A stretch of 64,000 nt of DNA from Roseiflexus sp. RS-1 (GTDB lineage Bacteria; Chloroflexota; Chloroflexia; Chloroflexales; Roseiflexaceae). A program made the position numbers and the translations under genes. The stretch is taken from the NCBI RefSeq assembly GCF_000016665.1, contig NC_009523.1, positions 3,843,501 through 3,907,500 of the forward strand. Direction: 5' to 3'. The notes under the pieces are model-generated. The model had not been told where the DNA came from. It was given only the letters and a program-made list of their open reading frames with translations, and did not search any database. This document shows positions 7,849 to 12,155 of the stretch, piece after piece. Numbering within the stretch: position 1 is the stretch's first letter; the number at the start of each line of letters is the position of its first letter.

Positions 7849-8060
7849 TAGAGACAGAGGACAGCGTCACTCTGCTCGCTCCGATGCCAGAGCATCCTGT
7901 CCCGAAGCAATGTCGGGCTTCCATAAAGTGTAGATTGATCAGGCGCAGCAGTGTGAAAGAGAACGATGACCGGGGAAGAAGATCCGGCTACCGCCGGATC
8001 ATCACGCACATCCGGCACAGGGATGCAGAGAACAGTGATTGCAGGCGCGCCTGACGACAC

Positions 8061-8615
8061 TCAGGGAAGCGGCGTTAGAGAAACAACGGTCAGAATCCGG
8101 CTGCCCACGGGAAGGTCATTGCAGGCATCGAGGCTCCGTGTTTTCCACACCGCCTGCCAGAAATCGGCGTGGCGCCAGTTTGGGGTGGGAGTCAGAGTGA
8201 TTTCGAGCATCTGCGGGTAGCCAAGGGTGGGATGATATTCGGCGCGCACCGAGAGAACATCGTCGCAGGCGCAACCACGTGAGACGCATGTGCGACGCAC
8301 CGTACCGTGACGCCCAACGAGATCGAACAGGTCGCGCACAGCAACCGGCGGTTGCTCACACGGACGTGCGGCGTAGCGCGTTTTGATCACGCGCTCAGAG
8401 CGCACTTCGACCTCCATCCGGCACCCGCGATCACGCAACCGCATCAGGTACGCATCGAATGGGCGACCGCTCCAGCGTGCACGGGCTTCCAGCAGGTCTG
8501 CACGATGCTTTGCCGGCTCACGTTTGACGGCAAGTACGCCAGCAGCGCCGCACACGAATACGAGCAGCGTCAGGGTTGCAGGAAGAAACCAGATCTTACG
8601 GAGCGATAAGAACAT
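8061..8615 (-). CDS. Secreted or anchored hypothetical protein, possibly DUF6174-like
   Basis: 184 residues. One N-terminal hydrophobic helix (residues 8-29) acts as signal or anchor; the rest is soluble. Cysteines at CRMEVEV, RPCEQPP, RTCVSRGCACDD and DACNDLP suggest disulfides outside the membrane. The pattern of a Trp near RARWSGRPFDAYLMRLR followed by strand-rich Cys-containing segments recalls DUF6174, but this was not tested. It stands alone between repeat clusters, so context says nothing about its role. Confidence 0.6.
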   Translation of the reverse strand: MFLSLRKIWFLPATLTLLVFVCGAAGVLAVKREPAKHRADLLEARARWSGRPFDAYLMRLRDRGCRMEVEVRSERVIKTRYAARPCEQPPVAVRDLFDLVGRHGTVRRTCVSRGCACDDVLSVRAEYHPTLGYPQMLEITLTPTPNWRHADFWQAVWKTRSLDACNDLPVGSRILTVVSLTPLP

Positions 8616-8718
8616 GGGAGAATCATACCATAAGTCTGCTGCAAAAAGCTCGTCTTACTGCTGAGGAAGTGTGTTGCATGTCACATCTTGCTCGTGTGCA
8701 GCGCCATCCCGCAGGCAT

Positions 8719-8898
8719 TATGGTCTTTGAGTAATTATTCCGCTCCAGCCCGCGCAGGCGGGCTTTGCATTCCATAGCCGAGGGCTGCATCCCCACGGCA
8801 AGGGCGCATACGGGGGCGCAGCGCACCTGATGGTCTTTGAAGAAATAATCCATTCTCGCCCGCGCAGGCGGGCTTCGCCCTGGATAGCCGAGGGCTTA
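8719..8898. repeat. Two MITE-like repeats abutting the IS630 element
   Basis: Copies start near 8719 and 8831, both with the TGGTCTTTGA end, the AGCCCGCGCAGGCGGGCT hairpin (first base varies) and the TAGCCGAGGGCT block. The second runs directly into the left end of the transposase-bearing element at 8899, so the element landed in or next to a repeat. The stretch 8616-8718 has no gene and no recognised signal. Confidence 0.78.
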
Positions 8899-10154
8899 TG
8901 GTCTTTGAATAAATAATCCGCTATCCGAGACCGACATACGGTACAAGCTTTGGCGAGCCGGTTGCAAACGACGCGAAGAAAGCATCCAGATGGCTGCGCA
9001 CCTGATCGCGATCCGTCGCCCAGCGGTGCACGCGGGTGACCTCCTGACGCATCCACCGCCCCAGCTGCTCGCAATCAAGCGGCGCCACGACGCATCCGTC
9101 GGCGCCGGCATCCGTTGGATGGGCAGGCGGACATCCCCAGCCCGGCGCACGGCCCGTCCACTGGGCGTGGCCGGCCACTTGCCAGGACGGGAAAACGCCC
9201 AGCAGGTCGTGTGCGGCTCGAGCGCCACCAGGACATCCGGATGAACATGGACCGGCCAGGTATCCAGTATCACATAGATGCGCTCAGCCTCAGGATAGGC
9301 GGCGCGCCGGTCCGGGAAGCACGGCGCCAGCGTCGCCAGGCCCATCGTCGTCGCCCGCCGGGTGACCACCTGGCCCGTCACGACGTCCAACCTGCCCACG
9401 CTGCGCAGGTCGCCATCGGTCGCCAAACTCCGTTCCGCCCGCACCGGATCGGCGCCCGCCCGCCCATACCCGTTGGCCAGGGTCGGGCGCCGGGTGACCG
9501 GGACGTCATCCCGATCCACGGTCACCACCTGGTTGGGGTGCGCGTGCGCATCCTCCGCCACGTCCGCAATCTCCTGCAGGTTGGCCTGAGAGTGCGGATC
9601 AGGGCGATGCACATGACTGCGGGCGCGCTGCCAGGTGATGCCCAACCGATCCAGGATGCGGGCGATCCCGCGCAGCGAGGCGTCGCGCCCCCACGCCAAC
9701 GGGCTGCGGATGGCGTCCAGGGTCCCGCGCGTCTGGGTCAGCCCGCACGGCCGCGGGTCACGGCGGACCAGATGCTCCACCTCAGGAGCCGCCGTCGCAG
9801 GGTCATGGCGGTCAGGGGGAACAAGCGGGCGTGCGCCCGCGTCCGTCCCGGATGGGGAGGCTATCGATGCCCTCGGCGTCCCAGCGCTTCAGCCAGCGAG
9901 AGACGGTTTCCGGATGGCGCGGACGCAGCACGCGTGCGCGCGCCGTGACAGCGGGCGGCACGCCGGACGCGATGCGCAGGAACGCTGCCGCCCGTTCACG
10001 CACATAGGGCGTGGGGGCGTGATCGCGCAGGTCTTCGCGGGCCTCCCGCTCCTCGACGGACACGTGAAGGGTCCGGCGTGCCGGCATCGCAACCTCCTGA
10101 GCAAGGCTTGACACGGATGAGTATCAGTATAACGGAATATTTTTTCAAAGTCCA
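8899..10154 (-). mobile_element. Decayed IS630-family insertion sequence
   Basis: About 1256 bp. Imperfect 26-bp terminal inverted repeats at 8899-8924 and 10129-10154 agree at 22 of 26 positions and share TGG-CTTTGAA-AAATA-TCCG-TAT. The interior is filled by a broken IS630-type transposase on the minus strand. The left flank is TA (8897-8898), the usual IS630 target, but the right flank is TC, so no clean TA duplication remains. The same ends occur on the MITE-like repeats in the window, making this the probable source of their mobilising enzyme. Confidence 0.8.
8921..10114 (-). pseudogene. IS630-family transposase, broken by frameshifts
   Basis: Three reading frames are needed. The segment from 10114 to 9812 encodes an N-terminal helix-turn-helix (PETVSRWLKRWDAEGIDSLP). 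The segment from 9780 to about 9180 encodes the DDE core with VVTVDRDD and IYVILDTWPVHVHPDVLVAL, equivalent to the IS630 D-N-W-P-V-H motif. The C-terminal part resumes in another frame from about 9178 to 8921 with QLGRWMRQEVTRVHRWA and SPKLVPYVGL. Breaks near 9800 and 9190 disrupt the protein, so it should be inactive unless frameshifting occurs. Confidence 0.82.
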
Positions 10155-10240
10155 TCAGCCCCACGGCACGCGCGGGATAGCGGATTTATTTCTCAATCTC
10201 CATCAGCCCCACGGCACGAGGCGCATACCGGATTATAGCA
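10155..10240. repeat. MITE-like repeat fragments right of the IS element
   Basis: Two partial copies of the CAGCCCCACGGCACG block lie here, one followed by TTTATTTCTCAATCTCCAT, the variant terminal repeat. They continue the nested repeat cluster interrupted by the IS element. Confidence 0.65.
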
Positions 10241-10268
10241 GTTCTCACAGAGGTTGAACCTGGCGGAC

Positions 10269-10456
10269 GAGGTTGAACACTCCCGGAATCGCACTCCCCA
10301 CAAGGCGACCGAAATGAATTTCGGTCTACACTCCGCTGGCAGCGGGCGCCTCGCGCGACACGGAGGTTGAACACTCCCGGAATCGCACTCCCCACAAGGC
10401 GACCGAAATGAATTTCGGTCTACACTCCGCTGGCAGCGGGCGCCTCGCGCGACACG
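10269..10456. repeat. 94-bp tandem duplication
   Basis: Copy 1 (10269-10362) and copy 2 (10363-10456) are near-identical and head to tail, beginning GAGGTTGAACACTC and containing GACCGAAATGAATTTCGGTC, itself palindromic (GACCGAAAT/ATTTCGGTC). A diverged single copy of the same block recurs near 24603-24690, before asd. No protein is supported in this stretch. Confidence 0.85.
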
Positions 10457-10582
10457 GCGGATAGGAATAATGGTCAATGTATCTGAGAAATGCTGTAAGT
10501 TCTCAATATCTATGATGCTGCGGGATGGCGTGGAACGCATTGCTGCGCCCCTCCGGCGGCAGAGGTATGCATCATCAATGGC

Positions 10583-10604
10583 GCTAGTATGCTAGCATAC
10601 TAGC
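10583..10604. other. Perfect 22-bp palindrome
   Basis: The 22 bases starting GCTAGTATGCT are their own reverse complement, with no spacer. It sits about 90 bp before the first clear CRISPR repeat. It could be an operator for a dimeric regulator or part of a leader; there is no T-run, so a terminator is unlikely. Confidence 0.7.
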
Positions 10605-10617
10605 ACTGCGTGGCTCT

Positions 10618-10646
10618 ACCTGCTCCTTGCGCATGCAATCTGAACG
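10618..10646. repeat. Possible degenerate outer CRISPR repeat
   Basis: GCTCCTTGCGCATGC matches 13 of 15 positions of the CRISPR repeat core GCTCCTCGCGCACGC and lies 59 bp before the same core in the first intact repeat, close to the array period of 61. The rest of this unit has diverged. Chance similarity cannot be excluded. Confidence 0.4.
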
Positions 10647-10676
10647 GCGTTTTTCAGCGTTTCTCGGAGTCGTGGT

Positions 10677-11010
10677 CACCGCTCCTCGCGCACGCGGTTA
10701 CAGCGCACCCCAACGCGAACGCGCGTTCTGACCAGTCCACCGCTCCTCGCGCACGCGGTTACAGCGCGTTTTCCGCAAATTATTGTCGCTGTGTTGCACA
10801 CCGCTCCTCGCGCACGCGGTTACAGCGTATGGACAATCTGTTGCCGGACATTGACGTGACACCGCTCCTCGCGCACGCGGTTACAGCGTTCGGCGACGCG
10901 CCGACATTGGCGGAGTGGAACACCGCTCCTCGCGCACGCGGTTACAGCGGTTCGCCCGGTGCGCGCGATGCGCAGGGCGCACACCGCTCCTCGTGCAGGC
11001 GGTTACAGCC
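10677..11010. CRISPR. CRISPR array, six 29-bp repeats with five 32-bp spacers
   Basis: Repeats start at 10677, 10738, 10799, 10860, 10921 and 10982, exactly 61 bp apart; five are identical, containing CTCCTCGCGCACGCGGTTAC. The five 32-bp spacers are all different. The last repeat has three changes (bases 13, 17 and 29), the usual sign of the leader-distal end, so the leader would lie to the left. The 29/32 geometry and the GCGCACGCGG core resemble subtype I-E, though the outer stem is weakened. No cas gene is in the window. The final repeat contains the stop codon of the metal-transporter permease at 11003. Confidence 0.88.
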
Positions 11011-12118
11011 TATCTCCCCCCAGGATCGTCGCCACAAAACGCCGCCCCTGATCGGTCAATATAAGCATGCCATTCTGCTGCACCAGCAAGCCGCGCTGTT
11101 CAGCACGACGCACCACCCGTTCCGTAAATGCGGGCGCCCAGTTCAGATGTTCGCTGAGATGCGCAGCCTGACACTCAACCGCTGCCTGCGCCGTTGCCTG
11201 GTGGTGCAGCAGATGCACCGCCAGCATCGCCTGAGCAAACTCCCATCGCTGACGGATGCGCCGCAATACCTGCGCCAGCAGACCGCGTTGCGGGGCAAAC
11301 ATCCATGCCAGACAGAAGATCAATCCCGCCATCACTGCCATGGCGCCGGCAATCGACGCATTGAGCGCGAATGCCGCCCAGCACCCCAGGCTTGCCGCCA
11401 GCGCGCCAAACAGAGCGCTCAATGCCAGCAGACGCGACAAACGATCAGTTAACAGATAGGCGGCAGCCGGCGGTGCAACCATCAATGCCACGACCAGCAC
11501 CGAACCGACGGCATTGAAGGCGCCTACTGCCGTCAGCGATACCACGCTCATCAGACCGTAATGCAAAGCCGCTGGCGCAAATCCAAAAGCAGACGCCAGC
11601 GCCGCGTCGAAGGTTGTCAGTTTCAACTCCTTGTAGAACGCGATCAGCAACGCCAGCGATACTATCAGGATACCGCTCATCAGCCAGAGCGACCGCGGAC
11701 CAAGATCGTTTCCGGCGAACTCAAACCGATCCAGCGGTGCAAACGCAAGTTCGCCAAGCAGTACGGCATCGACATCGAGATGAATACTGCCTGCGTACTG
11801 CGCTATCAAGATAACGCCAATGCTGAACAGCAGCGGAAAAACCAGCCCAATCGCAGCATCTTCGCGCACCCGGTTCGAGCGACTCAACAGTTCGATCAGC
11901 ACCACGGTCGCCACTCCGGCGCCAGCTGCGGCGACGACCAGGATCGGCGAAGTCAGGTCTCGCACAACGAAGAACGCCAGCACGATCCCCAGCAGAACCG
12001 TGTGGGTAATGGCATCGCTGATCATTGCCACACGGCGCAGCACCAGGAAAACGCCGGGCAATGCACAGGCAACCGCAGTTACGCTTGCGATGAGAATAAT
12101 GTCGGTGAACAGTTCCAT
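11003..12118 (-). CDS. Metal ABC transporter permease fused to DtxR/MntR-like winged helix
   Basis: 371 residues from the ATG at 12118; an in-frame start at 12154 is less likely. The first 270 residues hold 8-9 membrane helices of the ABC-3 family that imports Mn, Zn or Fe (VFLVLRRVAMISDAITHTVLLGI, VGSVLVVALMVAPPAAAYLL). The last 80 residues are soluble and resemble a DtxR/MntR-type winged helix (HLSEHLNWAPAFTERVVRRA, then NGMLILTDQGRRF). This fusion is known in some Mn permeases and may couple metal status to transport. Last gene of a four-gene importer operon; its TAA stop lies in the terminal CRISPR repeat. Confidence 0.87.
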   Translation of the reverse strand: MELFTDIILIASVTAVACALPGVFLVLRRVAMISDAITHTVLLGIVLAFFVVRDLTSPILVVAAAGAGVATVVLIELLSRSNRVREDAAIGLVFPLLFSIGVILIAQYAGSIHLDVDAVLLGELAFAPLDRFEFAGNDLGPRSLWLMSGILIVSLALLIAFYKELKLTTFDAALASAFGFAPAALHYGLMSVVSLTAVGAFNAVGSVLVVALMVAPPAAAYLLTDRLSRLLALSALFGALAASLGCWAAFALNASIAGAMAVMAGLIFCLAWMFAPQRGLLAQVLRRIRQRWEFAQAMLAVHLLHHQATAQAAVECQAAHLSEHLNWAPAFTERVVRRAEQRGLLVQQNGMLILTDQGRRFVATILGGDRL

Positions 12119-12155
12119 ATGCGACACTGCCTTCCAGACCAATCGACCATCCACG

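Follow-up and report, generated by a model that had tools for sequence, protein, structure and literature searches.

Cas1-Cas2 attaches a prespacer to the two ends of a site as long as a repeat, and this site becomes duplicated; CRISPR arrays grow at their leader end, where the first repeat is copied. Non-canonical (off-target) integration of spacers outside arrays, giving neo-CRISPR loci, was reportedly described by Nivala, Shipman and Church in 2018, who are also said to have proposed natural cases in Yersinia pestis and Sulfolobus islandicus. Orphan arrays, which are located away from cas genes, were reportedly the subject of work by Shmakov et al. in 2020. The 2018 study is cited in PMC9456107 and PMC11788318, the latter stating in the passage concerned that Cas1-Cas2 was overexpressed, and low-level in vitro integration at non-CRISPR plasmid sites is dealt with in a part of PMC6895254. 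The orphan arrays of Shmakov et al. (2020) are mentioned in a section of the review PMC8616872. Roseiflexus sp. RS-1 appears in PMC5017753 in a set of genomes that have more than one CRISPR array, with data taken from CRISPRdb; the main text of that paper contains neither 'orphan' nor 'type I-E'. The array described here may be listed in databases such as CRISPRdb, and the core of its repeat was not found in the main texts of papers covered by a literature search.

The array is located in a 64,000-nt stretch of the chromosome of RS-1, a hot-spring bacterium, referred to here as the window. Like the orphan arrays of Shmakov et al. (2020), it has no Cas1 or Cas6e gene beside it. Such arrays are usually interpreted as members of known systems that were displaced or have degenerated, whereas the RS-1 repeat could be assigned to none of the systems found in the genome or in the class. 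Like the neo-CRISPR loci of Nivala et al. (2018), RS-1 presents spacer-sized inserts between apparent repeat-length duplications of host DNA outside CRISPR, in a cell with an I-E integrase. In contrast to the overexpression setting that PMC11788318 attributes to that study, the genes of RS-1, a wild isolate, are native, and one of its sites has grown to five spacers. We hold, with moderate confidence, that the array is a neo-CRISPR locus, in which the resident Cas1e-Cas2e integrated spacers at an off-target chromosomal site.

Structure of the array and its overlap with a metal permease gene

Six 29-nt repeats of CACCGCTCCTCGCGCACGCGGTTACAGCG were present at 10677-11010 of the window, starting at positions 10677, 10738, 10799, 10860, 10921 and 10982, with a start-to-start distance of 61 bp in all five steps. 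The first five repeats (R1-R5) were identical at 29/29 positions, without a single difference over 145 bases, and the last one (R6) matched them at 26/29, with 3 positions different. The five spacers (S1-S5) were each 32 nt long and all unique. The orphan array therefore has the dimensions of an ordinary type I-E array (29-nt repeat, 32-nt spacer, 61-bp step). A first-pass annotation of the window had described six repeats 61 bp apart with unique 32-bp spacers, and had placed the stop codon of the permease gene in a degenerate last repeat, with array and gene sharing bases; these descriptions were borne out. The permease ORF (11003-12154, minus strand) stops within R6, where the TTA of GGTTACAGC, read in reverse, is the stop codon. 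The features of the locus are as follows.

8719..10603, no strand assigned: insert of dispersed DNA on the left side of the array; comprises an IS element with remnants of transposase, and short repeated elements up to 10513 and at 10528-10603; not in isolate 629F.7 (see below)
10604..10676, + strand: left flank of R1, in the leader position; unique, with no copy elsewhere in the own genome; lacks an AGT ending
10677..10705, + strand: repeat R1
10706..10737, + strand: spacer S1 (32 nt)
10738..10766, + strand: repeat R2
10767..10798, + strand: spacer S2 (32 nt)
10799..10827, + strand: repeat R3
10828..10859, + strand: spacer S3 (32 nt)
10860..10888, + strand: repeat R4
10889..10920, + strand: spacer S4 (32 nt)
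10921..10949, + strand: repeat R5
10950..10981, + strand: spacer S5 (32 nt)
10982..11010, + strand: repeat R6 (26/29, last); holds the permease gene's last codon and stop; isolate 629F.7 has the 3' end of R6, GTTACAGC, at its array-less site too
11003..12154, - strand: metal ABC transporter permease (ABC-3 family, by Pfam), overlapping R6

The permease at 11003-12154 was assigned to the ABC-3 metal permease family, and behind it lie genes for a second permease, an ATPase and a ZnuA-type binding protein. Helix-turn-helix matches were found in an ORF (9812-10114) inside the insert left of the array. At 10300-10460 of the window a 67-bp unit with the palindrome GACCGAAATGAATTTCGGTC is present twice, 94 bp apart, and is a member of a dispersed repeat family. 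A candidate degenerate seventh repeat at 10618 (18/29) was not counted, because about 15 further positions in the 64-kb window reach an equal score and because it lies 59 bp, not 61, from R1. Rfam gave nothing over the gathering score.

The first-pass annotation had proposed looking for other arrays with this repeat. At up to 3 mismatches, no copy of its 26-nt core was found in the whole own genome beyond the six array sites, and the array is therefore not a product of chance. It is extremely unlikely that the locus only resembles CRISPR and is a tandem or dispersed repeat unconnected with Cas proteins: although the genome is full of dispersed short repeats, also beside the array, the spacers are unique and of a constant 32 nt and the repeat occurs nowhere else. 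It is also not a coding repeat, since 61 is not a multiple of 3.

Protospacers were sought by BLAST, as had been recommended earlier, and none that was convincing was found in phages or plasmids. The array gave only chance-level pieces against these collections, in which hot-spring phages are poorly covered, and when an 18-19-nt word from each spacer was searched in viral_contigs, S1, S2, S3 and S5 had no match and S4 had one. The S4 match (L086:595-616, in a gene of the contig) covered 22 bases at the 3' end of S4 without a mismatch; it was treated as chance, because the other ten bases match no better than expected by chance and the contig comes from a different source. G+C-rich matches of 19 and 17 nt to S5 were observed in L202 and L186. 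No spacer matched the own genome outside the array, which gives no indication of self-targeting.

The resident I-E system and comparison of repeats

The RS-1 genome, a single contig of 5,801,598 bp, contains four Cas1 loci (five matches, two within one gene) and one Cas6e, at about 0.8 Mb. The Cas1 match nearest to the orphan array is about 62 kb away (G000 3,791,532, in genome coordinates). The earlier statement that no cas genes are nearby thus holds for Cas1 and Cas6e, the families searched genome-wide, and no cognate cas genes were detected beside the array in these searches. The proposed search for I-E cas genes in the genome did reveal a complete type I-E operon at ~796-808 kb, about 3 Mb from the array, encoding Cas3, Cse1, Cse2, Cas7e, Cas5e, Cas6e, Cas1e and Cas2e, each above the NCBIfam cut-off in at least one model. 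A DNA-binding regulator-like protein is encoded upstream of it. Adjoining cas2 is the resident I-E array (L013, G000 ~796,948-798,073), with 19 repeats of 29 nt and 18 steps, of which 15 are 61 bp, two are 60 bp and one is 62 bp. Next to the remaining three Cas1 genes are arrays whose consensus repeats measure 33-37 nt and whose steps measure 64-77 bp, and so the I-E system is the only one, among the systems seen, with the 29+32 ruler of the orphan array. An integrase with this ruler (Cas1e and Cas2e) is therefore encoded in the own genome. Additional CRISPR systems of the genome, observed in L015, L017, L019 and L020, comprised 59 repeats of 37 nt near the Cas1 gene 62 kb from the orphan array, 111 repeats of 33 nt next to a type I-C-like Cas1, and two large arrays that had the same 37-nt repeat.

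The resident I-E array resembles the orphan array in its 29-nt repeat, 32-nt spacers and 61-bp steps, but unlike the latter it has a strong hairpin, a conserved leader and cas2 as a neighbour. The two repeats are identical at 14/29 positions and differ at 15/29, a weak resemblance (P 0.011-0.019 in a fixed register), and when the R1-R5 repeat was compared with the I-E repeat on both strands and with shifts, P was 0.06. The minimum free energy of folding of the orphan repeat was -6.8 kcal/mol (z -0.33), in a fold other than the I-E hairpin, against -11.7 kcal/mol (z -1.25) for the resident repeat, which agrees with the earlier impression of an outer stem weaker than usual for I-E. The absence of a hairpin fits a repeat that was never selected for Cas6e.

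The comparison was extended to 158 Chloroflexia genomes, 23 of which have Cas6e; loci were taken from 20 of the 22 others (two were left out), together with L013 for RS-1. Seventeen arrays with a step of 56-66 bp were found at 15 of these 21 Cas6e loci, 16 of them at 14 loci other than the resident one. The repeats of these 16 arrays matched the resident repeat at 24-28/29 positions and the orphan repeat at 13-16/29, and the range of 13-16/29 for the orphan repeat also covers all 17 arrays at the 15 loci, the resident one included, for which the match to the resident repeat is 24-29/29. Judged by its sequence, the orphan repeat is not an I-E repeat of the Chloroflexia clade. With up to 3 mismatches allowed, it was not found in any of the other 157 Chloroflexia genomes, and it had no exact match in genome_contigs or viral_contigs. 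The first repeat is preceded by AGT at 16 of 16 Chloroflexia I-E array starts (compared by eye, with the inner pieces of the broken array L129 excluded), and the orphan array has TGGT at this place. No other leader words common to Chloroflexia I-E arrays were seen by eye at the orphan array. A neo-CRISPR locus should have a repeat that is unlike the resident one and has no other copy in the genome, and both were observed here.

The first-pass annotation had suggested that the array may rely on machinery elsewhere. Such machinery is present, in the form of the complete I-E operon some 3 Mb away; its repeat, however, differs at 15/29 positions and the orphan repeat has no I-E hairpin, and for these reasons the resident I-E system is more likely the builder of the orphan array than its user. 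It is very unlikely that the array works in trans, being expressed, processed and used by the resident Cas6e-Cascade. The genome does have the complete operon and the spacer length is right, but in the I-E register only 4/7 stem pairs are possible in the orphan repeat, two of them G-U as read from the sequence, and its 5'-handle is unlike that of the resident repeat. In addition, no sigma-70-like promoter was found in 10400-11100, although this is a weak test. The product of the array would not be processed by Cas6e and would hence confer no immunity. The array is probably not processed into working guides, and neither crRNAs nor immunity are expected from it.

The locus in related genomes and the origin of the array

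In Roseiflexus sp. isolate 629F.7 (G065), the closest relative compared, the permease gene directly adjoins the gene that in RS-1 lies to the left of the insert. The sequences corresponding to 7884-8645 and to 10990 onward of the window are neighbours there, with 87% and 90% identity, a difference of ~10-13% in the flanking DNA. G065 lacks the IS-rich DNA, the left flank of R1, R1-R5 and the spacers. The stretch common to RS-1 and G065 extends to GTTACAGC within R6 and then fades leftward: about 8 nt of the 29-bp site match exactly and the left half of R6 has no counterpart, with 2.3 kb of IS-rich DNA between. As G065 has both and is array-less, this shows that the gene end, with the 3' end of the repeat in it, can occur where there is no array; the full 29-bp site is not seen there. 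Free local alignment of R6 to the G065 junction was unexceptional (25 of 1297 windows score as high; 80 of 1297 for the R1-R5 repeat), and the correspondence between R6 and G065 therefore rests on where the match lies, at the gene end. In four other, more distant Roseiflexus genomes the sequence behind the permease gene was unrelated. Cas6e matches in two adjoining pieces, perhaps reflecting a frameshift, were observed in G065 (C3:8007-8713; L105, L109 and L110), and no array was found on the 9.9-kb contig that carries them.

The array could instead be ancestral to RS-1 and G065 and have been deleted in G065, with the 3' end of the last repeat left behind as the stop codon. The stop region GTTACAGC is indeed common to G065 and the repeat, and the four more distant genomes differ after the gene. 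The junction in G065, however, is continuous with the left flank in RS-1, without repeat remnants further left, and R1-R5 are identical while the flanks are ~10-13% different, so that an ancestral array must have stayed active; we regard such a deletion as improbable. The same contrast, no differences over 145 bases of R1-R5 against flanks that differ by ~10-13%, also disfavours the relic of a lost I-E system that the first-pass annotation had considered, as does a repeat without the stem, the 3' end and the leader of the I-E arrays of the clade.

A related possibility is that a second, foreign I-E system came with the IS-rich insert and lost its cas genes, the last repeat having recombined with the gene end over a short identity. 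This is consistent with the 29+32 geometry, with a degenerate last repeat such as ordinary arrays have, and with the IS-rich insert that adjoins the array and is missing in G065; a diverged donor is also possible, as searches beyond the Chloroflexia were for exact matches only. Five identical copies of a stemless repeat, on the other hand, would be unexpected under selection for processing by Cas6e, the repeat has no relative in 157 Chloroflexia genomes, and solitary duplications of like size, described below, are left unexplained. A foreign origin is, on balance, unlikely.

Under the neo-CRISPR explanation, the Cas1e-Cas2e integrase of the resident type I-E system, whose genes lie near 0.8 Mb, would have placed a spacer at an off-target site, the 3' end of the permease gene, and this first insertion would have duplicated 29 bp, stop codon included. 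The new repeat on the leader side, to the left, would then have been reused until five spacers accumulated. R6 would be the oldest copy, retained by the gene, and R1-R5 would be recent copies; the uniformity of R1-R5 and the divergence of R6 would arise because later events used the left copy and R6 was held by the gene. We infer both the leftward position of the leader side and the identity of the builder as the resident I-E integrase. Support for this explanation comes from the 29+32 ruler common to the array and to an intact-looking I-E operon with an unrelated repeat, and from more solitary insertions of like size. Counting against it are a 29-bp ancestral site that was not seen intact in G065, the weak resemblance to the I-E repeat, the failure of the searches to find a protospacer, and, for the solitary sites described below, an excess that varies with the filter, the missing independent empty site of L207 and the diverged state of the paralogs of L163.

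Candidate solitary insertions of I-E size elsewhere in the genome

Off-target activity of the resident integrase would be expected to have left further single events. The prediction tested was a duplication of 28-30 nt around an insert of 31-33 nt, with a step of 60-62 bp, elsewhere in the genome, and 1,017,500 bp and then 1,817,500 bp (31%) of the own genome were scanned. A first, lax filter gave no excess at 60-62 bp (4 non-array rows, with about one per distance elsewhere), but did reveal two clean cases at exactly 61 bp. A filter for exact isolated duplications of 25-34 nt, with the orphan array excluded, gave 4 rows at 60-61 bp against 18 at 78 other distances. With a stricter filter 4 rows were found at 60-61 bp against 4 elsewhere (Poisson P 2e-5), or 3 against 5 when the row L207:15353 was moved to the others (P ~0.001), and since the two filters were designed once the first results had been seen, these P values are descriptive. 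Whether an excess is observed at 60-62 bp depends on the filter. The row L207:15353 (step 60), which is still within the 4-row counts, was judged to be a tandem dispersed element and was dropped as a candidate. Three solitary candidates were retained.

L163:1613-1703 (G000 ~3,969,113): 30-nt duplication, insert of 31 nt, step 61; in a dispersed element
L169:15369-15457 (G000 ~4,102,869): 28-nt duplication, insert of 33 nt, step 61; in a dispersed element
L207:15102-15190 (G000 ~4,462,602): 29-nt duplication, insert of 31 nt, step 60; the duplication covers the right end of a dispersed element of 170 bp and 7 nt more

Each of the three has a repeat sequence of its own. For L169, all three paralogous copies of the element that were aligned carry the duplicated sequence once and are without precisely these 61 bp; at this site the repeat is thus single-copy at the empty site, by the evidence of three paralogs, as expected of a neo-CRISPR. 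L163 minus its 61 bp aligns through to many diverged paralogs with 70-79% identity, and for L207 no independent empty site was found. The inserts had no full copy elsewhere in the 2.77 Mb of DNA compared, save for the copy of the L169 site in G065. The L169 site is present whole in that genome (100% over 331 bp), more alike than the genomes are; it may have been transferred or be mobile, or the assembly may be mixed. In BLAST searches against phages the three inserts had weak or no matches, and words from the L207 and L169 inserts had 1 and 3 viral matches, respectively, none of which extended (21-23 of 31-33 letters). Compared jointly with the I-E repeat, the four sites (the orphan array and the solitary sites) gave P 0.05, barely above chance. 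The orphan array and the three candidates all lie within 3.85-4.46 Mb of the genome, where 3.6-4.5 Mb was scanned, and no solitary candidate was present in the scanned 0-0.84 Mb; this clustering may be due to chance.

The wider reading is that the native I-E integrase of a wild thermophile seeds the chromosome with spacers, most of them solitary, and that one of these became a self-propagating array of five spacers at the stop codon of a metal permease gene, without a known leader or a processable repeat. We consider the chances of this reading to be even. If true, the locus would be a natural and datable case of the de novo birth of a CRISPR array. Such a case would bear on how arrays with new repeats arise: if integrases can found and extend arrays off target in nature, new arrays need no old ones. 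Part of the orphan arrays in databases may then be newborn rather than dying. Solitary 29+32 insertions offer a simple signature for genome scans, which can be counted in genomes with I-E genes and in relatives without them.
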